The position numbers were made by a program, and so were the translations under genes. Of a stretch of DNA of 41,594 bases, positions 11,104 through 33,226 are shown piece by piece. The first letter of the stretch is position 1; every line of letters starts with the position of its first letter. This DNA is from Sulfurimonas sp. (GTDB lineage: Bacteria > Campylobacterota > Campylobacteria > Campylobacterales > Sulfurimonadaceae), in NCBI RefSeq assembly GCF_028694895.1, contig NZ_JAQVKA010000006.1, forward strand, positions 1-41,594, in the 5' to 3' direction. The notes beneath the pieces are model-generated. The model saw only the letters and a program-made list of their open reading frames with translations. It was not told where the DNA came from and made no database searches.

Positions 11104-11992
11104 TTAGTTTTTCGTAAGCTTCTTCAATACTCTTTGCTTTTTGTGTAACAAATAGGTAAACAGCAGCATTTAAGCGTGCTAGTTTTAAGAATTCATTAGA
11201 TGGGTTATTAACCTGTTCTATTGACTCTTCAAGAGTTATCTTCTCCCAAGATTTTGTATAATTAATACCATAATACTCAGGGTCAATTATCATCTCTTCA
11301 ACCTCGCCTCCATTAACTAGCCACAATCTACCTTTACTAAAGAGCTCAGGAGTCCCTTCATTTCCTTGAATAAGCGCAAATCTTTTATATTTATCTGAAA
11401 AAACTTCTACATATTTACTCAAATAAGGCTTATGAAAAATTCCCGTAATTGCAAATTCGCTAGAAGCAACCCTTGTTAGTTTTTCAATAGTATTAATACC
11501 TGTGCGAAGTCCTAAGCGCATGCGCATTGGCGTTATGTCGTGCATCTCTTTAAAAAAATCTGCTCTATCGAAATAGTGGATATTCTTCTCTAACTCTATA
11601 CTTGTTGCTACTTCTTTGAGTGTAATTCCAGGTTTAGCCGGTGCTAAATCATCGCCAACAACCACAAGTTCTAGATCAAAATTTTTAAGTGCCTTTGCTA
11701 CAAGAGGAAAGATAAAAGGATTATTTACTTTCCCATCAAATGGATATCCAAGTTCTATTGAATTTGCTATTGGAGTTCTTTTTATAAACCCATCACAAGC
11801 ATCAACAACTCCTTTAAACTCCTCATTTGTCTCAGGTTTGAGTCGCCATCCAAGTAAAAAAGCTGCTGCTTGTTCTGGATAAACATCTTGTTTTAAGATA
11901 CGTTCCATCATATCCTTTGCCTCTGCATGGCTCAAATCTCTATTAGTTTTCTCGCCTGTTCCTACTGCATGTATATACTTAAAAAAATCCAT
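11096..11992 (-). CDS. TrpD2/YbiB-type glycosyl transferase family 3-like protein
   Basis: 298 residues resembling anthranilate phosphoribosyltransferase but of the TrpD2/YbiB branch. The N-terminal helical domain has LSHAEAKDMMERIL and PEQAAAFLLGWRLKPET, the usual TrpD opening. The GTGGD PRPP loop of true TrpD is missing and is replaced by GYPFDGKVNNPFIFPL. A later RLGLRTGINTIEKL corresponds to the YbiB LGLRTxxNTxEKL stretch. Known YbiB binds nucleic acid rather than acting in tryptophan synthesis, so a catalytic role should not be assumed. It is followed by an overlapping MFS gene. The upstream region (11993-12060) is very AT-rich, with TATAAT-like sequences on the minus strand, and no FNR box was seen. 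Confidence 0.82.
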   Translation of the reverse strand: MDFFKYIHAVGTGEKTNRDLSHAEAKDMMERILKQDVYPEQAAAFLLGWRLKPETNEEFKGVVDACDGFIKRTPIANSIELGYPFDGKVNNPFIFPLVAKALKNFDLELVVVGDDLAPAKPGITLKEVATSIELEKNIHYFDRADFFKEMHDITPMRMRLGLRTGINTIEKLTRVASSEFAITGIFHKPYLSKYVEVFSDKYKRFALIQGNEGTPELFSKGRLWLVNGGEVEEMIIDPEYYGINYTKSWEKITLEESIEQVNNPSNEFLKLARLNAAVYLFVTQKAKSIEEAYEKLNG

Positions 11993-12105
11993 CTTTGTTC
12001 TCTTCTTTATAATATTTTTAGTTCGTATAATATAATGATATTATTAAAATGAGGTAACAAAAGTGCTTTATACGATGAAAAGAAGTTTTGGCTGTGAAGA
12101 TTTTT

Positions 12106-12142
12106 AAAAAAAGATATTTGCCTAGCATCAGTGCTAGGCAAA
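12106..12142 (-). terminator. Rho-independent terminator of the lipoprotein gene
   Basis: A perfect 11-base-pair stem (12117-12127 with 12132-12142, arm TTTGCCTAGCA) closes a four-base TCAG loop. Read on the minus strand, it is followed after a short TATC by a run of seven T (12112-12106). It lies 20 bases beyond the stop of the lipoprotein gene at 12162, which it should terminate. It also separates that gene from the TrpD2-like gene's promoter. Confidence 0.85.
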
Positions 12143-12161
12143 AGGTGTAGAAGATTAAAGA

Positions 12162-12533
12162 TTAATACTTTTTAGCTTGTAACTCATCTATAATTGCGTA
12201 TCTTAGCGCCTTTAAATCATTTTGAGATGCTTTATCTTTATCACACATAATATGCTCTTTTGCAATCACTATTGTAGTTGAGTATGTCTCAGATCCGATC
12301 TCCTTCTCAGCAATAATAGAGTTTGTTTTAAACCCTGTCATTCTCCATCCCTCTTTTGCGCCTGCACTCTCTACCGCATTTAAAACGCTTTTTGTACTAC
12401 GATCACCTACATATATAGCTGTTTTACAAATAGTTGCATCCCCTGTTTCTAAACCTGCTGAAACTTCTTTTGTTGTACTACAACCACTCATTAATGTAAG
12501 TGTTGCAACAGTTATCGACACAATTTTTTTCAT
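12162..12533 (-). CDS. Putative lipoprotein, 123 aa
   Basis: A type II signal peptide is visible: KK near the start, a hydrophobic core, and lipobox LMSGC with the lipidated Cys at residue 18. The mature part of about 105 residues contains two further cysteines (TICKTA and IMCDKD), which may pair, and KEGWRMTGFKTNSI. I do not recognise the family. It stands alone, with its own terminator downstream and a divergent small membrane-protein gene upstream. The leader holds a GGGGAAAG ribosome-binding site about 6 bases before the ATG. Confidence 0.82.
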   Translation of the reverse strand: MKKIVSITVATLTLMSGCSTTKEVSAGLETGDATICKTAIYVGDRSTKSVLNAVESAGAKEGWRMTGFKTNSIIAEKEIGSETYSTTIVIAKEHIMCDKDKASQNDLKALRYAIIDELQAKKY

Positions 12534-13399: not shown

Positions 13400-14086
13400 G
13401 TGGCTAAAAAATCCGTATGGAGCGATAATCGCTTCTGGCAACGCACAGCAGGCTGGGTTACAGGTTTTGCTTCAGTTCTACTTATTTGGTTGACATTTGA
13501 CACAAGTGCACAAATATCAATGGGAACTGATACAGACTTACAAAATGGTGTAACTAAAAGGGTTCCAGGACCTACAGTTATTAATTACAAAATCGCTTAT
13601 GAATTCAACAAGAAGCGTCAGCATGAAATTCCAGTAATTGGTGGAATGAATTCAGAAGGAACTTCAGCTTTCCAAGAAAAAGAGAAGTTTTTTGGTAGAG
13701 ATGATTGGTCTGAAGAAGAAGCGGAAAGCTTACTTCACCTTGGTAAGCTAGCTTCTCAAACTAAGAACTGTATGAACTGTCATACTCTACTTGGAAATGG
13801 TGGATACTACGCTCCAGACTTAACAAAAGCTTGGTTAGATCCAGCATGGGGGCCAGAAGGTTCAATGCAAGCAATGACATCTAAAGAGACTAAAGAAGAA
13901 GCGATGGCGGAGTTTTTACAAAATCCATCTCAATATCCAACTCATGCTCGTATGATGCCAAATCTTGGTATTACTGCTGAAGAGGCTAAAGGTTTAGTTG
14001 CTTTCTTAAAGCATCTATCATCTATAGATACGAATGGTTTCCCAAGAAACTTTGGAAAAATTCAAGGAGCAGTAAATGGCAAATAG
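13400..14086 (+). CDS. norC: Nitric oxide reductase cytochrome c subunit
   Basis: Electron-entry subunit of cNOR. One membrane anchor (residues about 15-33) is followed by a periplasmic domain with a single heme c site CMNCH (Cys124, Cys127, His128) and the likely Met ligand in ARMMPNLG (185-186). At 228 residues it is longer than the usual NorC of about 150: some 80 residues between the anchor and the heme site (about 35-115) are extra, including GTSAFQEKEKFFGRDDW. The start is GTG (13400) behind a strong AGGAGG. The 3' end overlaps norB by 11 bases. Confidence 0.95.
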   Translation: MAKKSVWSDNRFWQRTAGWVTGFASVLLIWLTFDTSAQISMGTDTDLQNGVTKRVPGPTVINYKIAYEFNKKRQHEIPVIGGMNSEGTSAFQEKEKFFGRDDWSEEEAESLLHLGKLASQTKNCMNCHTLLGNGGYYAPDLTKAWLDPAWGPEGSMQAMTSKETKEEAMAEFLQNPSQYPTHARMMPNLGITAEEAKGLVAFLKHLSSIDTNGFPRNFGKIQGAVNGK

Positions 14087-15500
14087 TTATTCAAAATCTG
14101 AATCTAAAAAATTAGCAACATGGTATTTTACAGTTGCAGCAATTCTTTTTGGAGCACAGTTACTTTTTGGTCTCATAGCGGCTACTCAGTATGTTATGCC
14201 AGGTTTCTTGTTTGAAATCCTAGATTTCTCTGTAGCTAGAATGGTACACATTAATGCACTTGTTGTATGGATGGTTTTTGCTATGTTTGGTTCTGTTTAT
14301 TGGTTATTACCAGATGAAACTGGAATTGAAACTGTTGGTATTGGTCTTGGAAAATTACTTTTCTGGGTATTTACTGCAGCCGTAACAGTTGTTGTTCTTG
14401 TATACTTATTCGTTCAAGTTGGGCCTGCTGATGAGACATCACTCTGGTTTATTCATGAAGGTAGAGAGTATATTGAAGCTCCACGTTGGGCTGATATTGG
14501 TATTACAATTGTAGCATTAGGTTTCGTTGCAAACCTTTACATGACAGGTATTAAAGGTAACCGTTCTGGTATCGTTACTGTTCTTATGGCAGACATGATT
14601 GCTTTTGCTGGTCTTTACCTAACTGGTATGTTCTATACTGATAATATTTCTGTTGATCAATACTGGTGGTGGTGGGTTATTCACCTTTGGGTTGAAGCTA
14701 CTTGGGAAGTTTTCGTTGGCGCACTAGCTGCTTATGGTCTAATCACTATGATTGGTGCGCACCGTAAAGTTGTTGAAATGTGGTTATGGATCGAAGTATC
14801 TATGCTATTTGGTTCAGGTATCCTTGGTATGGGTCACCACTACTTCTGGATTGGTACACCTGAGTACTGGTGGGAAATTGGAGCACTATTCTCTGCGCTA
14901 GAGCCATTACCACTTGTTGCGATGTTTATCCACGTTCTTTATGACTGGGGTAAAATGCAAGGTGAAGAGGATGCAAAAGGTTTACCACATACTGTTGTAA
15001 ATAATAAACCAGCGTTTACTTGGTTTATCATGAATGCACTTGGTAACTTTTTAGGTGCTGGTGTTTGGGGATTCTTCCACACAATGCCACAAGTTAACCT
15101 TTATACTCACGGAACACAGTTTACATCTGCTCACGGACACTTAGCGTTCTTTGGAGCTTATGCAACGATTCTTATTGGTATGATGTATTTAGCTGTTCAA
15201 GGTAAAAACAATATCAAAATACTTAACCACACTAAGTCGTCTATTTGGGCGGTAAGCATGGTTGTTGGTGGTGTTGTTGGTATGACTGTAGCACTTACAC
15301 TCGCTGGTTATTCAGACGTTATTATATCTCGTGCACAAATGGGTGCTACATGGGCTGGTTATTTTGATGCTCAAAGCACAACTTGGTTAGTACAAGGTTT
15401 AGTATGGAGACTTATAATGGGTGTTATTACTTTTGTAGGTTTCATATTCTTAATTAAAGATTTGTTGAGTATCGGTAAAGCTACTCACCACGTAAGATAA
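14076..15500 (+). CDS. norB: Nitric oxide reductase catalytic subunit, cNOR type
   Basis: Reduces two NO to N2O at a heme b3/non-heme iron centre in the inner membrane. 474 residues with about 12 helices. All expected ligands are visible: His58 (low-spin heme b, helix II), FeB ligands His203, Glu207, His254 and His255 (HLWVEATWEVF and GMGHHYFW), heme b3 ligand His353 and heme b ligand His355 (SAHGHLAFFG). Spacing matches Pseudomonas NorB (His60, His207, Glu211, His258, His259, His347, His349). There is no N-terminal quinol-oxidase extension, so this is the cytochrome-c-dependent form, consistent with the adjacent norC. Confidence 0.97.
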   Translation: MANSYSKSESKKLATWYFTVAAILFGAQLLFGLIAATQYVMPGFLFEILDFSVARMVHINALVVWMVFAMFGSVYWLLPDETGIETVGIGLGKLLFWVFTAAVTVVVLVYLFVQVGPADETSLWFIHEGREYIEAPRWADIGITIVALGFVANLYMTGIKGNRSGIVTVLMADMIAFAGLYLTGMFYTDNISVDQYWWWWVIHLWVEATWEVFVGALAAYGLITMIGAHRKVVEMWLWIEVSMLFGSGILGMGHHYFWIGTPEYWWEIGALFSALEPLPLVAMFIHVLYDWGKMQGEEDAKGLPHTVVNNKPAFTWFIMNALGNFLGAGVWGFFHTMPQVNLYTHGTQFTSAHGHLAFFGAYATILIGMMYLAVQGKNNIKILNHTKSSIWAVSMVVGGVVGMTVALTLAGYSDVIISRAQMGATWAGYFDAQSTTWLVQGLVWRLIMGVITFVGFIFLIKDLLSIGKATHHVR

Positions 15501-15511
15501 GGAGATACACA

Positions 15512-15682
15512 ATGATGAACGCAATGTTTGAGCCATTTGTAGATGTAGTACCAAGTTTCTTTGCTACTTTATCTCAAGGGCCAATGACTCTAACTATTTT
15601 CTTGCACACTGTAATTATACTTCCAATGTTTTGGATTTATAAGCAAGAAAAAGCTCGTTTAGAGCAAGAAGAGGGTAACTAG
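15512..15682 (+). CDS. 56-residue membrane protein following norB
   Basis: A short frame starting MMNAMFEPFVDVVPSFFATL, with one membrane helix at about residues 25-42 (PMTLTIFLHTVIILPMFWIY) and a charged tail ending EEGN. The ribosome-binding site is strong (AAGGAG, 7 bases before the ATG) and the gene begins 11 bases after norB. I infer a small accessory or structural subunit of NorCB, comparable in size and topology to CcoQ in cbb3 oxidases. There is no direct sequence match to show this. The hairpin region before nirS follows. Confidence 0.8.
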   Translation: MMNAMFEPFVDVVPSFFATLSQGPMTLTIFLHTVIILPMFWIYKQEKARLEQEEGN

Positions 15683-15687
15683 TTATC

Positions 15688-15751
15688 GAAACACTATCAG
15701 GGCCCAACAGGGCCTTGAAGTTTCAATATGTTCCGGATCTAAAAAGATCCG
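15688..15751 (+). promoter_or_regulatory. Two consecutive hairpins between nor and nirS
   Basis: The first hairpin (15688-15724) has outer arms GAAAC/GTTTC and an inner nine-pair stem (15697-15705 with 15710-15718, one G-U pair) with an AACA loop. The second (15734-15751) is a perfect CGGATC/GATCCG stem with a TAAAAA loop. Neither is followed by a good run of T, so they look more like attenuating, processing or mRNA-stabilising structures than a full terminator. No promoter is obvious between them and nirS, so nirS may be read through from nor. Confidence 0.6.
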
Positions 15752-15782
15752 TTGATTTGTCTATTTTAGAAGGAGAAATAAA

Positions 15783-17423
15783 ATGAGATTAAATAAATTA
15801 GTATTATCAGTAACTGCGATGACAGTTATTGGTTCAGGGATGTTAGCTCAAGCAGCTGCTTTTGATGCTGAGACTGTTTTTGAAAAAGAGTGCCAAGGGT
15901 GTCATGGTCCTAACCTAGAGGGTGGTGTTGGTTCTGACTTACGTCCTGCCATTACTGCTAAGAAAAACTCTTATGAGTTGGCTGAGACAGTTTTAAATGG
16001 TCGTGCAGGTACTGCTATGCCTTCATTTAAAGATAAGATTACTAAAGATCAAGCTGATGCAATAGTTGATTATATTCAACACTTTAAAGGTAGAATAATT
16101 AAGCAATTAACTCTTGATACAGTTAAAGCTGGTTGGAAACCTCTTAATGACAGAATGGCATTTTTCACAAAATATCCAGACCCTTCTGATGTTAAGAAAA
16201 ATACAGATATTTGTTTCGTAACTGAGCGTGATGCTGAGCGTGTTACGTTTGTTGATGGAACAAGTGGTAAAATTTTATCTAGACACCCAGCTGGTTTCGC
16301 AGTTCACGTAACTGTTACAAACAAGCGTCAGCCTCGTTATGCTTACTCAATCTCTCGTTCAGGTTTAGTAACAATGTTTGACCTTAATACTCCAGGTCAG
16401 CAAAAAATTGCTGAAGTTCAAGTTGGATCAGACTCTCGTGGTCTTGCAGTTTCACCAGATGGTAAATACCTAATGGCTGGAAACTATGTACCAGGCGGTG
16501 CTGTACTTATGGATGCTATGACTCTTGAGCCATTAAAAGTTTATCCAACGTCAAGCGTTATTAAGCCAAATGGTGATATTGATTCATCTCGTGTAGCTGG
16601 TATTTTCGACACTCCATATGGTCCTTATTTTGCATTTGCACTTAAAGATGGTGGTCACGTTTATATCGTAGATTATTCTAAGCCAACTTTCCCAATCGTT
16701 GGAGATATTCCAAACATTGGAGACATTCTTCATGATGGTTTCTTAAATGAAGGAAAAGAGATTGGTCGTTACCTATTTATCGCTTATCAAGGAAGTGACG
16801 TTGTTGGTGTTGTAGACTTTAAAACTAAATCTTTAGTAACAAAAATCTACACAGGTCCAGCATCTAAACCACACCCAGGTCAAGGTTCTTCTTGGTTTAA
16901 TGAGGGTCTAGGCCAACAACTTGGTGCTACTGTTAACATGAACTTAGGTCAAGTAACAATTTGGGATAATCATTTCGATGTTATCCGTCAAATCCCAACT
17001 GGTGGTGGTGGACTATTTGTTGGAACATCTGAGCATACTCCGTTTATTTGGGCGGATAACGTTCTTGGTGGACCAAGTTCTTGGAATCAAGTTCACTTGA
17101 TTAACAAGCAAACTCTAGAGTTAGATAGAATCATCACTGTGGGTACATCTGAGGGTACTGTTACAGATCCTGTAACTCATAAAGTACTTTACAAATGGTC
17201 TGTTCCAACTGTAAAAGATGATAAAGGTGTTGTTGTAGTACCTCGTATACTTCACGCTGAGCCAGCAAATCACGGTCACTGGACTATGATTTCTGAGTGG
17301 AATGCTGGACGTATTGGTATTTATGAAGCTAAAACAGGTAAATTTGTTAAATACATTACTGGTTTAACAACTCCTACGTTTACTTACTCTATCGAGCACA
17401 GACAAACTATTCCAGGTGCATAA
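15783..17423 (+). CDS. nirS: Cytochrome cd1 nitrite reductase
   Basis: Periplasmic enzyme reducing nitrite to NO with heme c and heme d1. Residues 1-26 are a signal peptide ending AQAAA. A cytochrome c domain follows with CQGCH (Cys37, Cys40, His41) and TAMPSFKDK carrying a likely Met ligand. From about residue 105 onward is the eight-bladed d1 propeller, starting FVTERDAERVTFVDG and containing HPAGFAVHVT with the probable proximal heme d1 His, and HAEPANHGHW with the distal histidines. Length 546 is typical. The ribosome-binding site is strong (AGAAGGAG). Codons look optimised, as in norB. It is preceded by two hairpins and followed by another. Confidence 0.97.
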   Translation: MRLNKLVLSVTAMTVIGSGMLAQAAAFDAETVFEKECQGCHGPNLEGGVGSDLRPAITAKKNSYELAETVLNGRAGTAMPSFKDKITKDQADAIVDYIQHFKGRIIKQLTLDTVKAGWKPLNDRMAFFTKYPDPSDVKKNTDICFVTERDAERVTFVDGTSGKILSRHPAGFAVHVTVTNKRQPRYAYSISRSGLVTMFDLNTPGQQKIAEVQVGSDSRGLAVSPDGKYLMAGNYVPGGAVLMDAMTLEPLKVYPTSSVIKPNGDIDSSRVAGIFDTPYGPYFAFALKDGGHVYIVDYSKPTFPIVGDIPNIGDILHDGFLNEGKEIGRYLFIAYQGSDVVGVVDFKTKSLVTKIYTGPASKPHPGQGSSWFNEGLGQQLGATVNMNLGQVTIWDNHFDVIRQIPTGGGGLFVGTSEHTPFIWADNVLGGPSSWNQVHLINKQTLELDRIITVGTSEGTVTDPVTHKVLYKWSVPTVKDDKGVVVVPRILHAEPANHGHWTMISEWNAGRIGIYEAKTGKFVKYITGLTTPTFTYSIEHRQTIPGA

Positions 17424-20177: not shown

Positions 20178-20917
20178 TGGGCAAAGTTCATCTGACTGGA
20201 GCTGGTCCTGGAGATATAGAGCTACTTACACTTAAAGCACTTAGAGTAATTAGAGAAGCCGATGTAATTATTTACGATCGTCTAGCAAATCCAGATATTT
20301 TACAAGAAGCAAAAAATGGTTGTGAGTTTGTTTATGTTGGCAAGGAAGATGGTAAACATATAATTCCTCAAGATGATATAAACGAAGTTATCTATCAAAA
20401 TGCACTCAAACATGACATTGTTGTTCGTCTAAAAGGGGGAGATCCTTTTGTATTTGGACGTGGTGGAGAAGAAGCCCTATATCTTAAAGAGCGCGGCATT
20501 ACTTTTGATGTAATTCCAGGAATCACCTCTGCGATAAGTGGACCTGCATACGCTGGTATCCCTGTAACTCATAGAGGTGTTTCTGTAAGTTTTAGAGTTG
20601 TAACTGGACATGAGTCTCCAAACAAAAAAGAGTCTCAGATTCCTTGGAATACCTTTATAACAGACGATACAATCGTATTTTTAATGGGTCTTCATAACCT
20701 TCCAAAGATAAGTAAAAAACTCATTGAGCTAGGCAAGCCAAAAGATTATCCATGTGCTGTAATTTCAAGAGGTACAACAAAAGATCAAAGCGTTGTTGTT
20801 GGTACTCTAGAAAATATAGTTGAAAAAACCAAAGATGTTCCAACTCCTGCACTTATAGTTGTTGGCAAGGTTGTTGAACTTAGAGAACAACTACAATGGT
20901 TTGAGGGAAATGAGTAA
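20177..20917 (+). CDS. nirE: Uroporphyrinogen-III C-methyltransferase
   Basis: Uses two SAM to make precorrin-2, the first committed step toward siroheme and heme d1. 246 residues with SUMT motifs: VHLTGAGPGDIELLTLKALR at the N-terminus, RLKGGDPFVFGRGGEE, PGITSAISGPAYAGIPVTHRG, and FLMGLHNLPKI. It is a stand-alone CobA-type enzyme; the partner dehydrogenase/ferrochelatase is the separate gene at 8942. Located as the last heme d1 gene, so NirE is the fitting name. The ATG overlaps the nirF stop, and its own 3' end overlaps the start of the kinase gene. Confidence 0.94.
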   Translation: MGKVHLTGAGPGDIELLTLKALRVIREADVIIYDRLANPDILQEAKNGCEFVYVGKEDGKHIIPQDDINEVIYQNALKHDIVVRLKGGDPFVFGRGGEEALYLKERGITFDVIPGITSAISGPAYAGIPVTHRGVSVSFRVVTGHESPNKKESQIPWNTFITDDTIVFLMGLHNLPKISKKLIELGKPKDYPCAVISRGTTKDQSVVVGTLENIVEKTKDVPTPALIVVGKVVELREQLQWFEGNE

Positions 20918-22436
20918 GCTACTAAACACATCTGAAGCTATACTCATTGCACCAAACATCTACTGGGTTGGTATGCATTTAAAAAATGACCCATTCCAGT
21001 GCCACCCATATCTAATCAAAAATAAAAATGAATCTATCTTAATAGATCCAGGCTCCATGATTGAGTTTGAAGAAACTGTTAGAAAAATTAAAACTCTAAT
21101 AGATATGAAAGATATAAAATATATCATCCTTCATCACCAAGACCCAGATTTAGCAGCTGCTGTACCTGAGATAGAAAAATTAATAAACAGAGATGACCTC
21201 TTAATCGTTACACACTCAAGAATGTCTCTTCTCGTAAAACACTATCTTATAAAATCAAACTATTATGAAATAGATAAAGAAGATCATAAACTAATAACTA
21301 CCAATGGCTTTAGACTTGATTTTCTTACCACTCCATATTGCCACTCACCTGGAGCTTTTGTGAGTTACGAGCCAAGCTCAAAAACCTTATTTTCGGGGGA
21401 TATTTTTGGTGGTATAGAGCACTCTTGGGATTTTTATGCAGATGAGACTTACTTTTTAAAAGCTAAACTTTTTCATCAAGAGTATATGCCTAGCAAAGAT
21501 ATTTTCAACTACGCACTTGGCAAGATAGAAAAGCTAGATATTGATCTTATCGCTCCACAACACGGCTCAATAATAAAGAAAAAATATATAAACAAACTAA
21601 TTGAAGATATGAAAAATCTTGATTGTGGATTATATATTGAAGAGAAGTATAATCGTGAATTAATAGATACTATAAAAGAGCTTCAACAAAAAGAAGTGGC
21701 ATTAAAAGAGCGTGATTTACTAATTTTTGAACAATCAAAAAGAGCAGAGATTGGCGAAATGATTGGAAATATTGCGCATCAATGGCGTCAACCTTTGGCA
21801 ATAGTTAATACTTCAATCGCGATACTCCAAGAAAAAAACAGATTATCTTCTCTTAGTCAAGAAGAATTATCGCAAAAGTTAGAAAAAATAGAAAAACGTG
21901 TTATGTATATGTCCGAGACGATAGAAGATTTTATGAACTACTATAGCCCTGATAAAGAGAAATCTTGGTTTAAAATCTGTGATGCAATAGATAGAAGTCT
22001 AGATATTATGAATATGCAAGAAGAAAATACTCATGTTAAAGTGACTCTTCTTTTTGAAGAAGAACATAGATATTTTGGATTTTTTAACGAACTTGTTCAA
22101 GTATTGGTTTCAATAATCTCAAACATAAACGACATAATTAAAATTAAAAACTTAACAAATATAGTCATTTCTATTTCCATATATAAAGAGAGTGATTATA
22201 TAGTTATCTCTATTTTTGATAATTGTGGCGGTATAGATGATGAGAATCTCAGCAAGATATTTGACCCATACTTTAGTACAAAACACAAATCAATAGGAAC
22301 TGGTCTTGGACTTCATATAGCAAAAAAGATTGTTGAAGAGAATATGCAAGGCCACTTGAGTGCAAAAAATATTTATGATCAAAAGAGTAAAAAAATTGGT
22401 GCAGAATTTACAATAAAGGTAAAAAATGAAAGTTGA
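20910..22436 (+). CDS. Histidine kinase with N-terminal flavodiiron/ODP-type di-iron domain
   Basis: A 508-residue soluble sensor kinase. Residues about 1-235 form a metallo-beta-lactamase fold of the flavodiiron/ODP branch: HQDPDL with candidate ligands His76, Asp78 and Asp80, CHSPG with His145, FSGDIFGG with Asp164, and PQHGS with His218. No flavodoxin domain follows. Instead a coiled-coil linker (about 250-280) leads to a HisKA domain with AHQWRQPL (phospho-acceptor His290) and an HATPase domain with IFDNCGG, FDPYFSTK and GTGLGL (463-468). There is no membrane helix. The start is ATG 20910, overlapping the nirE stop; an earlier ATG at 20859 would lie inside nirE. It probably senses NO or O2 at the di-iron site. 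Confidence 0.9.
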   Translation: MSKLLNTSEAILIAPNIYWVGMHLKNDPFQCHPYLIKNKNESILIDPGSMIEFEETVRKIKTLIDMKDIKYIILHHQDPDLAAAVPEIEKLINRDDLLIVTHSRMSLLVKHYLIKSNYYEIDKEDHKLITTNGFRLDFLTTPYCHSPGAFVSYEPSSKTLFSGDIFGGIEHSWDFYADETYFLKAKLFHQEYMPSKDIFNYALGKIEKLDIDLIAPQHGSIIKKKYINKLIEDMKNLDCGLYIEEKYNRELIDTIKELQQKEVALKERDLLIFEQSKRAEIGEMIGNIAHQWRQPLAIVNTSIAILQEKNRLSSLSQEELSQKLEKIEKRVMYMSETIEDFMNYYSPDKEKSWFKICDAIDRSLDIMNMQEENTHVKVTLLFEEEHRYFGFFNELVQVLVSIISNINDIIKIKNLTNIVISISIYKESDYIVISIFDNCGGIDDENLSKIFDPYFSTKHKSIGTGLGLHIAKKIVEENMQGHLSAKNIYDQKSKKIGAEFTIKVKNES

Positions 22437-23115
22437 AAAAATCAGAGATATATCTATTTTACTAGCAGAAGATGAGAGTGAACTCCGCGAACTATTACAT
22501 GAATACTTACAACTATTTTTTAGCCGAATTTATACCGCTGCAAGTGGCGATGAAGCTTATGACATATACTTGCAAAAAAGACCAAAAATCATTCTAACAG
22601 ACTTAAGCATGCCAAAGCTTGATGGATTAAAGATGATAAGTAAAATAAGAGAAAATGATAAAGAGACCAAGATCATAGTTATGAGCGCTCACTCTGAACA
22701 AGAAAAGCTTCTTCTTGCTATCAAACTTCATCTTGAGGCATACCTCATCAAGCCAATAAAAACAGAAAATTTAAAGACTATTTTATTTGATATTGTAAAA
22801 CAGATAAAAGAAGAATCACACCGTACATACGTTGAAGAAAATATATATTGGGACCATGACACTAGCACACTTTGGAGAGATTCTAGAGAGATAAAACTAA
22901 GAAAGATGGAGAGTATGCTACTAAGACTTCTTTTTTCAAAACCAAATGAGATTTTTTCTACAAAAGAGATTTTTGATTATTTACATACAGAAAAAGATGA
23001 TAAAGAGTTCTCAGTTCACGCGGTAACTTCTCTTATGAAAAGACTTCGCGCAAAACTTCCTGATGAAGTGATTCACAATATTTATGGCTCAGGATACAAA
23101 GTAATACCTATTTAA
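22426..23115 (+). CDS. OmpR-family response regulator
   Basis: 229 residues: receiver domain (about 8-125) with acidic Glu15/Asp16, phospho-acceptor Asp59 (LTDLSMP), Ser87 and Lys109 (LIKP). A winged-helix DNA-binding domain follows (about 135-229), with KMESMLLRLLFSKP, KEIFDYLH and the C-terminal IYGSGYKVIP typical of the Trans_reg_C fold. The gene overlaps the kinase gene by 11 bases, so it is the cognate partner. Placement at the end of the nir operon predicts control of nir, nor or detoxification genes. The stop overlaps the convergent Sel1-repeat gene by 4 bases. Confidence 0.93.
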   Translation: MKVEKIRDISILLAEDESELRELLHEYLQLFFSRIYTAASGDEAYDIYLQKRPKIILTDLSMPKLDGLKMISKIRENDKETKIIVMSAHSEQEKLLLAIKLHLEAYLIKPIKTENLKTILFDIVKQIKEESHRTYVEENIYWDHDTSTLWRDSREIKLRKMESMLLRLLFSKPNEIFSTKEIFDYLHTEKDDKEFSVHAVTSLMKRLRAKLPDEVIHNIYGSGYKVIPI

Positions 23116-26457: not shown

Positions 26458-26982
26458 TTAAAATGTAGCTTTGATCAGTAACTCTACTTGATCATCAACA
26501 CACATAAACATCAAACAAGGCGCTTTGACTCCATAGTTGCTCATCAAAATAACAGAAGAAGCATCTATATTCAAGTTAGTATCTGTAGTAATTATTTTAG
26601 CATTTGCACTAAGCTCTTTTTTCTCTCCATGAAAGTCAAGTGTACCATTTATAATATAACTATCTTTACCATCAGTTTTTTTAACATCAGATATAGTGTA
26701 TGTAGCTAGCTTAAATTTATCTGTTTGTATCTCTTTATACATGTTCTTATCTCTATCGATATTATCACTTGTAAAGAGAGTCATCTCAACCCAAAACTTT
26801 CCTTTAATGGTAGTAATGTCATTATTCTCTATTGTTATATCAGCGTGAAGATAGTTATTTGTAGGGTCAATAGTTTTATCCATTAGCATCTGGGTGTGTG
26901 CACTAACATAACCGCTTTTTAACTCTAGATTGGTTGCCAAAAGTGGAATCGCTAAAAGCAGCGTTATAAATATTTTTTTCAT
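26458..26982 (-). CDS. Periplasmic YceI-family protein
   Basis: 174 residues with a signal peptide (residues 1-16, FITLLLAIPLLATN). The mature part has the lipocalin-like YceI pattern of alternating strands: KGKFWVEMTLFTSDNIDRDKN, IINGTLDFHGEKKELSANAKI and a C-terminal VELLIKATF. The family binds polyisoprenoid lipids in the periplasm; its exact physiological role is usually unclear. A C-terminal CLMFMC pair of cysteines is noticeable. It heads a unit with mgtE and the symporter. Confidence 0.85.
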   Translation of the reverse strand: MKKIFITLLLAIPLLATNLELKSGYVSAHTQMLMDKTIDPTNNYLHADITIENNDITTIKGKFWVEMTLFTSDNIDRDKNMYKEIQTDKFKLATYTISDVKKTDGKDSYIINGTLDFHGEKKELSANAKIITTDTNLNIDASSVILMSNYGVKAPCLMFMCVDDQVELLIKATF

Positions 26983-27027: not shown

Positions 27028-27936
27028 TTAATGTATTGCTCTTGAGAGTGCAAGCGCTAAACCAAGACCAGATGCTATCCAGCCAACAAAAATCATCATA
27101 AATGCAAGTTTAGTTATGCTTGCTTCTTTACTCAATGTCATAAAGACTGACACGTTATAGTATGAGATTATAAAAGGATAAATCATAGCTAAAACAAAAC
27201 TCCACTCAAGATAGGAAAACATATAACTTAAAGTAAAAATAACAGCTATAAAAACATGTTGTTTTGTTTTTGATATCTTAAAATAATAGGCAGCTATAAG
27301 GCCAAGGAGGTGAAATATTATAATGATAAAAGTATATTTAGACCAGATATCCAAATCTTCATGCCTTGATAGAGTTTCAAAAAGGTTAGAGTCTAAAAAT
27401 ATCCATAGCATCAGAGGTAAATACTGTAAATATGGATGTGAAATCTTCTTTGAATCTATTTCAACAACATAATTTCTAAGCATCAATGTACTTAAGAGTG
27501 CAATTGCCGTAAATATAAGTGCCATAAAAATTCTGCCATTAGGATCATAGGTAAAAAAATAAGTACCTATTGTATAGGCAATTGCAAGTGCAAAAAGCAA
27601 CTCTTTTTGTTGCTTAGCTTTAAAGAGATAAATACCCAAAGGAGCCATTACACCTACAGACAAGCCTAAAAGAAATAAAGTAAAACTATTATAATAAGGG
27701 TAGAAAAACGATAAAACTAACTGAAGGCTTAAGGCAGTCATTATCTTATATATAGGGTTTTTGATTCCTCCCCAAGAAAAACCACCCAAAATAGTTCCAA
27801 TAACACCGCCCATAAACATAGGAAATAGTATTATCAAATCAGAACTATAGTGTGCAACCACACCTGTTTGAACTATCAATAGATAGTAAGATAACTCAAA
27901 CCCAAGAAGTAAAATAAGTGCTATAGAGTAGATCAT
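27028..27936 (-). CDS. Polytopic membrane protein, about 10 helices, unknown
   Basis: 302 residues, hydrophobic throughout, with about 10 predicted helices. FPMFMGGVIGTILGG and LFLLGLSVGVMAPLGIYLFKA resemble transporter-like glycine-rich helices, so it could be a distant MFS-like or other carrier protein. I see no named family motif. It is the last gene of the coupled five-gene operon starting at 31618; its ATG overlaps the stop of the heme-copper-oxidase-like gene in an ATGA. It should therefore work with that protein and the ABC exporter. Confidence 0.75.
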   Translation of the reverse strand: MIYSIALILLLGFELSYYLLIVQTGVVAHYSSDLIILFPMFMGGVIGTILGGFSWGGIKNPIYKIMTALSLQLVLSFFYPYYNSFTLFLLGLSVGVMAPLGIYLFKAKQQKELLFALAIAYTIGTYFFTYDPNGRIFMALIFTAIALLSTLMLRNYVVEIDSKKISHPYLQYLPLMLWIFLDSNLFETLSRHEDLDIWSKYTFIIIIFHLLGLIAAYYFKISKTKQHVFIAVIFTLSYMFSYLEWSFVLAMIYPFIISYYNVSVFMTLSKEASITKLAFMMIFVGWIASGLGLALALSRAIH

Positions 27937-29474
27937 AAACGGCTTTTAAAGATTAGATATAAAAGAGCGTATGCTATATCATAAAGCCCTACAAGAAGCC
28001 CAAGTGCATCTATTGTTCCCACATAAAACAAAGACAAGAAGATAGTTCCTGTGATAAGACGAGCCATTGAAGTCAAGTATGCTAAAAAATGAGTCTCTTT
28101 TTTTACTCCTATGAGGTGTAAAATACCAACAAAGCCCATAAACCCAAATACTAGATAATAATACGAAATAAAATGAAATCCTAAAATCCCAAATAGTAGC
28201 GGAGCGCTTAAAAAAAGAAGTAGCGCCCCAACTCCATCAGATAAAAAGCCATTTAGATGATAAAGTTGCAGATAAGATAGTTTTGGAAATTTCATCTTCT
28301 TTCCAATAAAATAGAGCAACCCGACAACGCCTATAACTCCGCCAAAAAGACGAATTTCCCACATAGAGATAACATTAATGGCAAACACATTAGCCTCATC
28401 AAATCCAGCAAGTGAGAGTGATATAAAAATAACTCCTATAACAAAAAGCCAAAAAGTTAAAAACTTATCTGGAATTTTATAAAAATACTTCAAAACACTA
28501 AGTGCCATAAAAAATATACCAAGACCAATCGCCACATGAGCATGTGCAATAATCAAATCATTTCTGTGAAAAGGCCAGCGTATCTCTGGAATAAAGAGTA
28601 TATTTCCCTGAATCATTACAAACAAAAATGCCCAGATAGATACAACTAGATAAGGTGTAGATTTTATAGTTATCTTTGCATCCATGCACCACTTAATCAA
28701 CAGCGGAGCATAAGCAAAAGTTAGCCACTGATATATCCACTCTTCAGAGTATGATAACTCTCCTCTAAATATACGAGTTGCAACAGAGATGGCATATCCC
28801 ACCAATGGGATAATCCAAAACAGATTCCATTTTGGAGTAAAGTTCTCTTTTGTATGCAGCTTTATCATAAGGTAAAAAAGAGGAATGATTGTAAAACTCA
28901 TCCCTAAAGTATTGTCACCGTGAGGACCTATTAATGTTTTTTCAACTTGCCCATAAGTAGGATTCATCAAAACTAAAAGTGAAATAGGTGCTATAAAAAG
29001 TAATATTTTAGATACTTTTACCCAGAGTGGTACAACTTTATACTGCTTGATAGTTCTAAAAATAGCAACTATATAAAAAATACCAGAAGATGCCAATATA
29101 AAATTTAACTCATAGGCAAAGTCATAAAATGGAAGAGCTCTTTGAGCGCCCAAAGAGATAGATACAACAGCCATAAATAAAAATAGATGCCATAGTAAAA
29201 AGTAGTTTCTAAGAGGTTCATATGCTACATCAAGATTTAGCTTATCTTTTGCAAAAAGAGCAAATGGAAGAAGAGAAAGAGCAAGCATAATCGGACCATA
29301 TAGCATTAGTGTAATATGTAAAGAACGCGTAGTTTGTGCATTTAAAAGCGTCTCATCAAAAAAAGAGAACCCAAGCATCTGTGCAGCATATACTACTCCG
29401 ACAAAGATAGAACCTAAAAATATAAAAGCCCAAATAGGGACAACGCCATTTATTAATTTATAAAATTTGTCCAT
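27933..29474 (-). CDS. Heme-copper oxidase-like membrane protein lacking the copper-site histidines
   Basis: 513 residues with 12 or more membrane helices. Comparison by eye with CcoN/NorB shows a helix II heme ligand (His53 in RSLHITLMLYG) and the paired helix X ligands (His311 and His313 in IIAHAHVAIGLG). The CcoN stretch GHNAVGFFLT is represented by GDNTLGMSFT, putting Asp187 where the first CuB His should be. The helix VII His-His pair is absent (region 225-240 reads GYAISVATRIFRGEL). It should thus hold hemes but not a normal binuclear centre, and is unlikely to reduce O2 or NO in the usual way. Its 5' end overlaps the ABC ATPase gene by 17 bases. Helix alignment is my inference. Confidence 0.72.
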   Translation of the reverse strand: MDKFYKLINGVVPIWAFIFLGSIFVGVVYAAQMLGFSFFDETLLNAQTTRSLHITLMLYGPIMLALSLLPFALFAKDKLNLDVAYEPLRNYFLLWHLFLFMAVVSISLGAQRALPFYDFAYELNFILASSGIFYIVAIFRTIKQYKVVPLWVKVSKILLFIAPISLLVLMNPTYGQVEKTLIGPHGDNTLGMSFTIIPLFYLMIKLHTKENFTPKWNLFWIIPLVGYAISVATRIFRGELSYSEEWIYQWLTFAYAPLLIKWCMDAKITIKSTPYLVVSIWAFLFVMIQGNILFIPEIRWPFHRNDLIIAHAHVAIGLGIFFMALSVLKYFYKIPDKFLTFWLFVIGVIFISLSLAGFDEANVFAINVISMWEIRLFGGVIGVVGLLYFIGKKMKFPKLSYLQLYHLNGFLSDGVGALLLFLSAPLLFGILGFHFISYYYLVFGFMGFVGILHLIGVKKETHFLAYLTSMARLITGTIFLSLFYVGTIDALGLLVGLYDIAYALLYLIFKSRL

Positions 29475-30087
29475 CTTTTAGCCTAATTATTTGTGTCGCA
29501 TACTCTTCTATACGCATATCATGGGACGCAACTACAACTGTAGTACCTCCCTTTAGAGCCTCTGCTAAAAGCTCATAAACTATTATCGAGTTTTTTGAGT
29601 CTAAACTACCAGTTGGCTCATCGGCGAATATAATTTTTGGCTCATTTACAAGCGCTCTTGCAAGTGCAACGCGCTGTCTTTGCCCGCCTGAAATCTCATT
29701 TGGATAACGTGATGAGAGTTCTAAAATACCTAGCTTCTTTAGTATCTCATTTATATTGTGCTTTTTATCATCCAAAGCGGCTAACGCTATGTTTTCATAA
29801 ATGTTTAGATAATTAATAAGATAATGAAACTGAAAAACAAACCCTATCTTGCTTTGGCGAAAATAGTCTATGTTCTTAATTTTATCAACTGATTCGTCAT
29901 CTATTAAAAGCTCTCCCTTTGATGGTTTAAGCAAAGTTGAAAGGATAGAGAGAAGTGTTGATTTTCCGCTTCCACTCTCACCACTCAAAAAAAGAAACTC
30001 ACCACTTTTTATCTCAAACGAGAGGTCAAAGAGGACTTGCTCCTTGCCATAATAATGAGAGACATTGGATACTTTTATCATGCACAT
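29458..30087 (-). CDS. ABC transporter ATP-binding protein, LolD/MacB type
   Basis: 209 residues with Walker [10 protein letters not shown] (about 37-45), Q-loop in FVFQFHYLI, signature [14 protein letters not shown] (about 133-146), Walker [10 protein letters not shown] and the switch His in VVASHD. The length and the [10 protein letters not shown] sequence are those of LolD/MacB/FtsE-class ATPases that pair with FtsX-like permeases. Two in-frame ATGs (30087 and 30081) are possible; the second is better placed behind AGGGA. It overlaps the permease gene by 10 bases and the downstream oxidase-like gene by 17. Confidence 0.93.
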
Positions 30088-31151
30088 CCCTGATTTATCA
30101 GAAGGATAGGATCGGTTTTAGAAGCTATCCATGCGGGTATTAATGAGCCTAAAAGAGCCATAAAAATAGTTGAAGTTAACACGTACATAGCAGTAGAGAG
30201 TGATAGTGTGCCGTTTACATATCCTTGGAGCATATCTATATGTGGAAGTATCTCTAAAATACCAATGCTTATAAGAAGTGCAAAAATATAAGCAGAAGTG
30301 CTCATAATAAGTGTCTCAAAAAAGAGGTTTTTTATAATAAAGAGTCGGCTTTTACCAAGAGCGCGCATAATTCCAAACTCCTCTTTTCTTGAGTTTACAA
30401 TCATACTCATAACCGAAGCTATCCCCATCAAACCCATTGCAAAAGCAAGTGTTGAGATAACAAAAGATGAATTTTTTATGATTTTAAACTGGTTATACTC
30501 TTTTACGAAATTTTGTGTTGTTTTTACTTCTATCTCGCTAGAGAGCGTGCTTAACGCCTTTACAATCTCATCAGTTTTACTAGGCGAAGTAGATGACACC
30601 AAGATAAAAGAAGCTGAGCGGTTAAAGAGTTCCCCCGCATCTCCTATATTCATAACTACCCCACCCTCTTCAAAACCTATACCACTGCTAAATATTCCAG
30701 AGATTTTAAAACGTTTGTTTCCTATGTTTACACTTCTTGTAGCAAATTGTTTTGCCAGATTTGTGCCTAAAATCACCTCACCATCTTTTGGATATTCTCC
30801 CTTTGTGAGTTTGTAATGAGGAAAATGGTTGGCTGTTGTACCGTAAATTCCAGCTATTGGAATATGGCCTATTGGAGAAGCTCCAACTATCATGCCATAG
30901 CTTGATGCTACATGCTCTAAGTTGTCTATCTTTTGAATCAAACCTATATCTACATTTGAGAAAAAGGTATCAGAGATTCCCTTTTGCGTAATAATAATAT
31001 CCCCATCTGTCTTAATCATTTTCGAATACATCCCAATCACACCTTGAGAGACAGAACTGATGAGGAAAATAGCCATAACAGCTATAGTAATAGATGAAAA
31101 TATCAAAAGACTTTTAAGCGGATTTTTGCTGAGAGCCTTTAATGATATCAC
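30078..31151 (-). CDS. ABC transporter permease, FtsX/MacB type
   Basis: 357 residues with one N-terminal membrane helix (about 15-37), a periplasmic domain of about 200 residues (MacB_PCD-like, including GEYPKDGEVILGTNLAK and FKISGIFSSGIGFEEGG), and three C-terminal helices (about 230-350) containing NSRKEEFGIMRALGKSR, the coupling segment of FtsX-domain permeases. Such transporters act on periplasmic or membrane-extracted substrates by mechanotransmission rather than by classical import. Overlaps on both sides with neighbouring genes (ATGA with the secreted-protein gene; 10 bases with the ATPase). Confidence 0.92.
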   Translation of the reverse strand: MISLKALSKNPLKSLLIFSSITIAVMAIFLISSVSQGVIGMYSKMIKTDGDIIITQKGISDTFFSNVDIGLIQKIDNLEHVASSYGMIVGASPIGHIPIAGIYGTTANHFPHYKLTKGEYPKDGEVILGTNLAKQFATRSVNIGNKRFKISGIFSSGIGFEEGGVVMNIGDAGELFNRSASFILVSSTSPSKTDEIVKALSTLSSEIEVKTTQNFVKEYNQFKIIKNSSFVISTLAFAMGLMGIASVMSMIVNSRKEEFGIMRALGKSRLFIIKNLFFETLIMSTSAYIFALLISIGILEILPHIDMLQGYVNGTLSLSTAMYVLTSTIFMALLGSLIPAWIASKTDPILLINQGCA

Positions 31152-31618
31152 TTCTCGATCGCCGCTTTTAGTTCTTGTTGCGAAGAGATTAATGTTATCT
31201 CTTTTATTTTTGAATCCTCTATACGAAGTAGAGTGATTTTCCCATCTTTATTTGAAATCATATCTTGGAACTTATCACCATAGTGCAGATATATAAGATG
31301 CTTATATTTTTGAAGTTTTGGTAGTGCAAACATACTTGTAATAATAGATGGCATCTTATGTATATCTGCTATAAAAATAGAGTTATTTTTTAAAAGATAA
31401 AACTTGCTTTGAGTATCAAGATACTCATTAACTAAGGCTCCAGTATCTTTTTCAAAAGCTACTATTACCAACTTTGTTTTTTGTGGTATCTTCATTTGGC
31501 GCCCTGTTGGCGTCTCATACTTAAAGTTATCTAGTGTATCAAGAGCAGAACCTATTTTAATAGAATCTGCACTCAAAAACAGAGAACTCAAAATTAAAGC
31601 TGATAAAAATTTATTCAT
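31148..31618 (-). CDS. Secreted protein, first gene of the ABC/oxidase-like operon, 156 aa
   Basis: Signal peptide of about 16 residues (MNKFLSALILSSLFLSADS) and a mature domain of about 140 residues with mixed strands and helices, such as KLVIVAFEKDTGALVNEYL, IFIADIHKMPSII and IYLHYGDKFQDM. This looks like a thioredoxin-type fold without any cysteine, but I am not sure. I start at ATG 31618, with AAGGAA upstream; the frame stays open to 31846 but that extension would lie inside the metallophosphoesterase gene. Its stop overlaps the permease start in an ATGA. Confidence 0.8.
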   Translation of the reverse strand: MNKFLSALILSSLFLSADSIKIGSALDTLDNFKYETPTGRQMKIPQKTKLVIVAFEKDTGALVNEYLDTQSKFYLLKNNSIFIADIHKMPSIITSMFALPKLQKYKHLIYLHYGDKFQDMISNKDGKITLLRIEDSKIKEITLISSQQELKAAIEK

Positions 31619-31661: not shown

Positions 31662-32408
31662 TTAATTAATAGTAAAAACTGGTATCTCTGATGAGACCTT
31701 ATATCTAACATTAACACCCCAATACCCAACTCCTCTACAGACATAAAGAAGAGTATTTTCATATCTATAAAGTCCTGATATATAAGGCTGAAAATATTTA
31801 ACAATGATGCTAAAAGGATAAATCTGCCCACCGTGAGTGTGACCACTTAGCTGGATATCTATACGAAAACCATTTACGTGTGATATATCCTTTGGCTGAT
31901 GTGTAAGCAATATAGTTGATAATTTAGGGTTTAGTCTGGAGAAAAGCTCCTTTATAGGACGTTTAATTCCGCGGATAAAACCATATCTATCGCTTAAGCC
32001 AACTAGTTGCAAAATAGAACCTTTTATATCTATCTCTACTATTTTATTATCAAGACAGATTACGCCATTATCTTGCATTATACTCTTTAGATGTTTGGTA
32101 CCATAAAAAATATCATGGTTTCCACTTACATAATAAGACGGTATTTCAAGCTTTTTAAAACAATCTAACTGCTCTTTTACACGTAGTGCAGAAGTTTGAA
32201 GTATATCCCCGCTAAATAGCAACAAATCGGGCTTTAGCTTGTTGATTTTTTCTACAAGGGTACTTAAATAATCAACTTTTACATCCTTACCAAGGTGCAG
32301 ATCTGAGAGTTGTACAATACGAAGCCCGCTTAAAGAAGCACAAAAGGTATCACTCTTTAGAGTAACTTCATCAAACCCAAAATGCTTCCAACCAACCTGT
32401 AAGGGCAT
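31662..32408 (-). CDS. Metallophosphoesterase, YkuE/YaeI-like
   Basis: 248 residues with the calcineurin-like metal motifs in order: LSDLHLG (D-x-H), FSGDIL (GD), VSGNHD (GNHD), LLTHQP (H) and LSGHTHGGQ (GHxH). The family contains membrane-associated phosphodiesterases, including lipid A pathway UDP-2,3-diacylglucosamine hydrolases of the LpxG/YaeI class and other phospholipid phosphoesterases; which reaction applies here cannot be told. No signal peptide or membrane helix is obvious. It begins 11 bases after the lipoprotein gene and precedes the secreted-protein gene by 43. Confidence 0.9.
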   Translation of the reverse strand: MPLQVGWKHFGFDEVTLKSDTFCASLSGLRIVQLSDLHLGKDVKVDYLSTLVEKINKLKPDLLLFSGDILQTSALRVKEQLDCFKKLEIPSYYVSGNHDIFYGTKHLKSIMQDNGVICLDNKIVEIDIKGSILQLVGLSDRYGFIRGIKRPIKELFSRLNPKLSTILLTHQPKDISHVNGFRIDIQLSGHTHGGQIYPFSIIVKYFQPYISGLYRYENTLLYVCRGVGYWGVNVRYKVSSEIPVFTIN

Positions 32409-32419
32409 CTTTTTTAAAC

Positions 32420-33076
32420 CTATTTTGAAAAATAATTTCTAATATGCGCTATCCATGAATCAAGAGCTGGTTTGATTTCTCTAAACTCAAGAGCATCACT
32501 ATTTAGTATAATCTTCTCATCTTTTACTATGTTCATACTCTCAGCAAGTATCTCACCAGTTGCAGCATCAACAATACGCTTCTCACCTAATACTCTTACA
32601 TTTTCATCTATATATGAGTTGTAAGATGTTACTGTAATATCCATTGCAATTGGCGAGAACTGATTCCATTTTTCATCCTCAAAATGCACCTCTACAGTTG
32701 AAACTGCTGTTTCAAGTATTAACGTATCAGCTCCTTTTGTCTCAACTAGCTTATATCTCTTAGAGCTTTGAATCTCTCTTTTGTATCCATCGCTTAAATA
32801 GTCTGAAATCTCTTTATATAACTTTTTTTGAGAAGGTGTTTGCTGCTCAATAGAAATTGCAGGTATTACAAGAACTGGAGCTATTAAAATAGTTTTATAC
32901 TTTGACATATCAAACTCTTTTAAACTCTTTTGTGCGCTATAGTTATCACTACTATGAAGCTCATCATAATCTTTAAAAAAACCACTGTTTTTTACATCTA
33001 TTCTCTTACCAGCACAACCACTCATTAAAAGTGCTAAGCCAAGAAGAGTCACACCAAATATTGCTTGTAGTTTCAA
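32420..33076 (-). CDS. Lipoprotein, DUF3313-like
   Basis: 218 residues from a TTG start at 33076, which has AAGGATT 7 bases upstream and gives a compact lipoprotein signal (MKLQAIFGVTLLGLALLMSGC, lipidated Cys at 21). The ATG at 33127 in the same frame adds 17 polar residues and has no ribosome-binding site. The mature part begins AGKRIDVKNSGFFKDYDEL, the usual GFLxDYSxL opening of DUF3313 proteins, and continues with YKTILIAPV and a C-terminal LDSWIAHIRNYF. Function of the family is unknown; it is anchored in the outer membrane or inner membrane. Confidence 0.82.
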   Translation of the reverse strand: MKLQAIFGVTLLGLALLMSGCAGKRIDVKNSGFFKDYDELHSSDNYSAQKSLKEFDMSKYKTILIAPVLVIPAISIEQQTPSQKKLYKEISDYLSDGYKREIQSSKRYKLVETKGADTLILETAVSTVEVHFEDEKWNQFSPIAMDITVTSYNSYIDENVRVLGEKRIVDAATGEILAESMNIVKDEKIILNSDALEFREIKPALDSWIAHIRNYFSK

Positions 33077-33226
33077 TTTAATCCTTTGTTGGCCAAATGC
33101 CTCTTGTCGTTTGTAAAATAATAGCATTTTAGATTAAAATCTGCCTACACTTCAAAACTTATCTATTTTAGTAAATTATGTTATTATTATTGACAAAATA
33201 AAGAGCCTCTGCTCAAGGTTGGCGTA

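Follow-up and report, generated by a model that had tools for sequence, protein, structure and literature searches.

In a window of 41,594 nucleotides (contig NZ_JAQVKA010000006.1, from a Sulfurimonas-like draft genome of 1.89 Mb in 159 contigs), six genes, here called A to F, form a dedicated set that joins an FtsX-type ABC transporter to a protein, D, of predicted haem-copper-oxidase (HCO) fold. The set was conserved in five families of the order, in sulfur-oxidising bacteria of the Campylobacterota. HCOs are regarded as terminal oxidases and NO reductases; a family with one copy per genome, present in five bacterial families and carrying haem ligands without CuB beside an ABC transporter, would show this fold doing other work. 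The set may handle membrane lipids or quinones, and "heme or lipid handling", one of the functions suggested by an earlier sequence-only reading of this DNA, remains the best direction. It would also provide a transport system, open to testing, for a YceI protein of Campylobacterota. In the literature searched, no paper contained both "heme-copper" and "YceI", and neither an operon joining these genes nor the combination of a CuB-less oxidase-like protein, an ABC transporter and a lipid-carrier candidate was described.

Layout and conservation of the gene set

Genes A to E occupy the minus strand from 31618 to 27028, with overlaps at every junction of 4 nt (A/B, GTGA), 10 nt (B/C), 17 nt (C/D) and 4 nt (D/E), and F follows E after 45 nt (Table 1). 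The sequence-only reading had described a unit of five genes with ATGA or longer overlaps. The genes and overlaps were confirmed, except that A/B is not ATGA, but the unit was incomplete: F, which is part of the conserved set, had been missed. The minus-strand run comprises the DUF3313 gene, a phosphoesterase gene, A to F and then an MgtE-like gene. Since this run is longer than the set, the functional unit was drawn from the comparison between genomes rather than from the strand run alone. Promoter and terminator scans of the locus gave counts near the shuffled expectation.

Table 1. Features of the window, with positions counted from its first nucleotide
Feature	Position	Strand	Remarks
A, small secreted protein	31148..31618	-	156 aa, no Cys, signal-peptide-like start
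B, FtsX/MacB-type permease (predicted)	30078..31151	-	357 aa, GTG start
C, ABC ATPase, FtsE/LolD/MacB-like	29458..30087	-	209 aa
D, protein of predicted haem-copper-oxidase fold	27933..29474	-	513 aa
D codon H53	29316..29318	-	aligned to TM2 low-spin haem ligand of CcoN
D codons H185, G186, D187	28914..28922	-	GPHGDNTLGM motif; D187 on TM6 CuB histidine of CcoN
D codons H311, A312, H313	28536..28544	-	aligned to TM10 H-x-H, high-spin and low-spin haem ligands
E, membrane protein of predicted MFS fold	27028..27936	-	302 aa, modelled with 11 helices
F, secreted divergent YceI-family (lipocalin-like) protein	26458..26982	-	174 aa
Calcineurin-like phosphoesterase, YaeI/LpxG-like	31662..32408	-	frequent seventh partner; family matches below curated cut-offs
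DUF3313 gene	32420-33127	-	part of longer minus-strand run
NorC-like	13400-14086		translation reading
NorB	14076-15500		translation reading and COX1 match at 14109
Cytochrome cd1-like protein	15783-17423		translation reading

Similar overlaps recurred in related loci far beyond chance (A/B in 33 of 34, B/C in 67 of 67, C/D in 68 of 68 and D/E in 60 of 61), in counts where some species are represented by two loci and where script-chosen starts make single values approximate. D was present in 49 of 151 genomes of the family, in 24 of 249 genomes of the class sample and, by profile search, in 34 of 298 genomes of the phylum sample, one copy each; these samples overlap and hold related genomes, so the counts are not independent. 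Outside the phylum, the scan for D used the peptide patterns of one sequence only. No D relatives were borne on plasmids, and the closest D on record was that of a Sulfurimonas crateris MAG.

Gene order differed between lineages. A-B-C-D-E-F was found in Sulfurimonas and most loci of genus g14, B-C-D-E-F-A in family f7 and genus g55, E-F-B-C-D-A in loci L037 and L038 (recorded as Sulfurovum), L090 and L114, and B-C-D-E-F in genus g39, where A was not found. A or F was not found in some loci of the set, and in one genome (locus L041) E-F lay 3.8 kb away from A-B-C-D. The order B-C-D stayed constant even where the other genes were permuted, F adjoined E in nearly all loci, and A adjoined the set in Sulfurimonas, a Sulfurovum-like genus, f7 and others. 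Being kept through reordering marks these genes as a functional set and speaks more strongly for a shared function than an operon of unchanging order would. The dedicated association proposed from the sequence was thereby borne out: the neighbourhood check that had been set as its refuting test found the block in five families, in shuffled order.

Within the family, E occurred in all 49 genomes with D and in 3 of the 102 without it (Fisher p 1.5e-36, relatedness not corrected), the 49 including one genome in which D is a gutted remnant (G142). D was found only together with the set, which in turn nearly always included it. A phosphoesterase gene adjoined the set in Sulfurimonas, f7 and g39 loci; in other lineages a gene for a metallo-beta-lactamase-fold hydrolase recurred beside it. 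This comparison establishes the gene set itself, and the mechanism proposed below is our interpretation.

Regulatory genes were observed near some loci. In f7 and g55 (L082, L083, L084, L085 and L089), a response regulator and a histidine kinase (clusters c8 and c9) follow the phosphoesterase and perhaps regulate the set. Elsewhere in the window, a gene at 20859-22436 appeared by eye to encode a metallo-beta-lactamase-type domain fused to a histidine kinase, and overlaps a response regulator gene (22426-23115, Pfam). In one g14 genome (L047, about 11060-12241), two F-like YceI genes of 176 and 176 aa stand in a row after E.

Three genomes in which D was lost or gutted retained B, C, E and F, and A was of full length in two of these genomes. 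In G142 an in-frame internal deletion has cut D to 86 aa (L057:8655-8891, on one contig). In G034 the other five genes are intact, and all that is left of D is scraps within a 147-base spacer (L111:8967-9114). In G054, a fragmented draft, C is directly followed by E (L112:7203-7206) and A looks truncated. The third E-positive, D-negative genome, G118, held a fragment of E only. One of the three D losses could be an assembly error; that all three are is less likely. With B, C, E and F kept, D is a separable part, which fits a redox or sensing add-on and not a core component. D is not obligatory, and the ABC, MFS and YceI part of the set can persist without it.

D of the window (27933-29474) shared 91.9% DNA identity with the S. 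crateris copy (L025:8001-9542), compared with 70–78% for A, B, C, E and F. The jump in identity was sharp at about the ends of D (150-base steps of 88–99% inside and 66–82% outside), as if D alone had been exchanged by recombination.

Predicted fold and haem ligands of protein D

As a single sequence, D of the window fell below the threshold for Pfam COX1 (E 0.07), but 25 of 25 aligned relatives matched COX1 at E ≤ 0.1 (best 2.4e-9), and the D profile matched CcoN in a search of the PDB (E 4.5e-5). No NCBIfam model matched D. The AF2 model (pLDDT 81.6, pTM 0.78) aligned with the NO reductase cNOR (4xyd; Z 25.3, rmsd 4.7, 382 residues) and with cbb3 oxidase (9g6b; Z 24.9). This alignment spans residues 1–400; residues 401–513 form extra helices outside it. 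Judging from the model, D has the 12-helix COX1 fold of the HCO superfamily. The earlier description of D as oxidase-like thus stood with the support of the relatives and the fold, window D alone being sub-threshold.

CcoN was used as the reference for the ligands of D (single profile comparison, E 2.8e-5, probability 74%) because the NorB profile alignment covered just part of D, and the putative haem pocket was judged by alignment alone. H53 aligned to the haem ligand on TM2 and H311 and H313 to the H-x-H on TM10; H53 and H313 would be the low-spin haem pair and H311 the high-spin haem ligand. All three were kept in 62 of 62 distinct D sequences, as were H185, D187, H303, N305 and D306, and the motif GPHGDNTLGM at the TM6 place was invariant or nearly so. 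The TM6 histidine of CuB aligned to D187, and the TM7 His-His of CuB was absent from all 62 sequences. A gap beside D187 leaves H185, two residues off, possible as the TM6 ligand, which limits the surviving CuB histidines to one of three at most.

By this alignment, D keeps the ligands for two predicted haems and is without the CuB site, for which we found no described parallel among its relatives in the literature searched. The missing CuB ligands argue that D is no ordinary oxidase or NO reductase. Additionally, no CXXCH motif of a c-type cytochrome was found in A to F of any locus. Across the family, nosZ and norB showed no positive association with D (Fisher odds 0.39 and 0.44, weakly negative), and within the genus no association was found. 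An orthodox cbb3 or NO reductase subunit was rejected on the absent CuB ligands and cytochrome c partner, and a denitrification accessory on the lack of a positive nosZ or norB (cNorB) link. On the same three observations, D as the respiratory subunit of the sequence-only reading is not supported.

The window does contain a denitrification cluster (13400-17423), recognized by reading of the translations and by a COX1 match (Table 1). A second NorB-like protein, 39% identical to NorB of the window and carrying HH and HLWVE motifs, is encoded at G000:C130:2384-3727 (L002). Many genomes of the family also have such a protein, and the first NorB is lacking in some of these.

Partner proteins and possible function

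B matched Pfam MacB_PCD (E 4e-15) and FtsX (E 1.5e-14), and its hydropathy profile has four hydrophobic segments with a periplasmic core between the first and the second. C matched ABC_tran (E 2.7e-35), and the FtsE, LolD and DevA models of NCBIfam tied near 181 bits, all below cut-off. The FtsX domain, the periplasmic core after TM1 and the FtsE/LolD/MacB-like ATPase place B and C, by their sequences, as an FtsX/MacB-type (type VII) ABC transporter; among the genes of the set, neither LolA nor MacA had a homologue that could be seen. E, which had been left as an unclassified 10-helix membrane protein, models with 11 helices (AF2, pTM 0.90) and aligned with MFS transporters over residues 1–302 (Z 22–24.6), in keeping with an MFS fold. 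F matched Pfam YceI with 50 bits (E 5e-13, cut-off 23.7) and is distinct from the canonical YceI found elsewhere in most of these genomes, which scored about 150 bits. It is probably a lipid-carrier protein, although with so divergent a YceI sequence lipid binding is not assured. A gave no significant family match and no PDB match worth trusting, and a thioredoxin-like sequence pattern in it was seen by eye only; scattered weak matches of A and E were taken as chance. F and the phosphoesterase gave no match to the PDB in a phmmer search.

Our leading interpretation, held tentatively, is that the set encodes an inner-membrane machine dedicated to a hydrophobic cargo in the periplasm; the likeliest cargo is an isoprenoid quinone or a membrane lipid that has been damaged. 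A B2C2 complex would pull the cargo from the inner membrane using ATP and present it in the periplasm, in the manner of YbbAP or LolCDE, and F would be its carrier, the role that YceI proteins have for ubiquinone or octaprenyl compounds. D, in the place held elsewhere by cytochrome b561 beside YceI proteins, would exchange electrons with the cargo via two haems, by quinol/quinone chemistry. E may flip or import a related molecule, and A may be an accessory to the periplasmic domain of B. Beyond the protein families, we infer every step, that is, extraction by B and C, carriage by F and electron exchange via D. This lipid or quinone machine is supported by the permuted six-gene conservation, the co-occurrence of D and E, the fold and haem ligands of D, the domains of B, C and YceI, the recurrent hydrolase neighbours, and the YbbAP (PMC12646458) and YceI (PMC9113575) precedents. 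Against it stand the divergence of F, the lack of a visible LolA or MacA homologue in the set, and the chance that E imports a soluble compound instead. Since three genomes keep the rest of the set with D lost or gutted, the redox step cannot be central; D would add it to a machine that persists without D. It is conceivable, though we regard it with some doubt, that a mechanical ABC transporter has taken over the HCO fold, minus the copper site, as its redox or sensor subunit, so that its lipid or quinone handling is coupled to electron flow.

The conservation of residues in D could also be read as that of an enzyme with an altered site, holding another metal at H185/D187 or using haem alone, which reduces NO, O2, peroxide or another small molecule while the ABC, MFS and secreted proteins act as assembly or cofactor-delivery factors. 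H185 and D187 in 62 of 62 sequences within a near-invariant motif, the kept high-spin ligand H311 and the service of the MFS transporters CcoA and CalT in HCO biogenesis elsewhere (PMC10588857) would all agree with this. We nevertheless consider it unlikely, as the genomes that lost or gutted D keep B, C, E and F, which is unexpected for assembly factors of D alone, no positive nosZ or norB association was found, and E of the window is without CalT motifs. Kept haem ligands with CuB lost, the separability of D from the transporter, and a B-C-D order held while other genes moved would likewise be compatible with D as a haem-based sensor of redox state or gas, acting as a switch that gates the ABC transporter and not as an electron carrier. 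Nothing speaks directly against this; so many helices would be unusual for a sensor and no precedent was found in the literature searched, and we judge it improbable.

The iron locus around P19 of Campylobacter jejuni combines FtsX-type permeases and an ATPase with thioredoxin-like proteins, a make-up that recalls the present set and would suit the import, export or insertion of metal or haem, as around P19 or for oxidase copper. CcoA, an MFS copper importer (PMC10588857), points the same way. The absence of Cys from A of the window, of an invariant Met from E and of CalT motifs from E of the window, together with the lipid binding of the solved YceI proteins (PMC9113575), leaves metal or haem handling quite improbable. 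Least credible to us is that D is a passenger, co-transcribed with the transporter and sharing no function with it. The three genomes in which D was deleted or gutted beside intact B, C, E and F would allow for a passenger, but the overlapping B-C-D adjacency persists across families and changes of gene order, and D occurs only with the set, which nearly always includes it.

Comparison with known systems

LolCDE, a type VII transporter, pulls hydrophobic molecules from the inner membrane. The set is like LolCDE-LolA in that the best NCBIfam match of B was lolCE and F is a candidate periplasmic lipid carrier, but it has one permease gene instead of two, B scored 59.9 bits against a lolCE cut-off of 362.45, and no LolA was seen in the set. 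Unlike in MacAB-TolC, B and C are separate genes and not fused, and no MacA adaptor was found among the conserved partners.

With CcoN of cbb3 oxidase and NorB of cNOR, D shares the predicted fold over residues 1–400 and three haem-ligand histidines. It differs in the absent TM7 His-His (62 of 62 sequences), the alignment of the TM6 histidine to Asp and the extra C-terminal helices, and its set encodes no c-type cytochrome subunit. The predicted MFS fold of E beside an oxidase-like gene recalls CcoA and CalT (PMC10588857), whereas the MXXXM and HXXXM motifs of CalT are absent in E of the window and not conserved among 24 E sequences; E as a copper importer for an oxidase was rejected on this ground.

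The type VII transporter YbbAP reportedly extracts hydrophobic compounds on behalf of a hydrolase (PMC12646458). As in YbbAP-TesA, an FtsX-type permease and an ATPase occur here with periplasmic partners, and a hydrolase gene often adjoins. By family match, the neighbouring hydrolases are of the calcineurin-like or metallo-beta-lactamase-like kind and not TesA, and the candidate haem protein D, the MFS protein and the YceI protein are extra. YceI lipocalins bind isoprenoids, ubiquinone-8 and octaprenyl compounds, and their genes are linked to the dihaem membrane cytochrome b561 in lipid-radical defence (PMC9113575). In the lipid peroxyl radical system LcoA-BcnA (PMC9113575), as here, a YceI lipocalin gene is linked to that of a membrane protein which has two haem sites (predicted here), but the membrane partner D is of predicted COX1/HCO fold and not a cytochrome b561, and the ABC and MFS parts are extra. 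The set thus resembles both YbbAP-TesA and LcoA-BcnA and is identical to neither.
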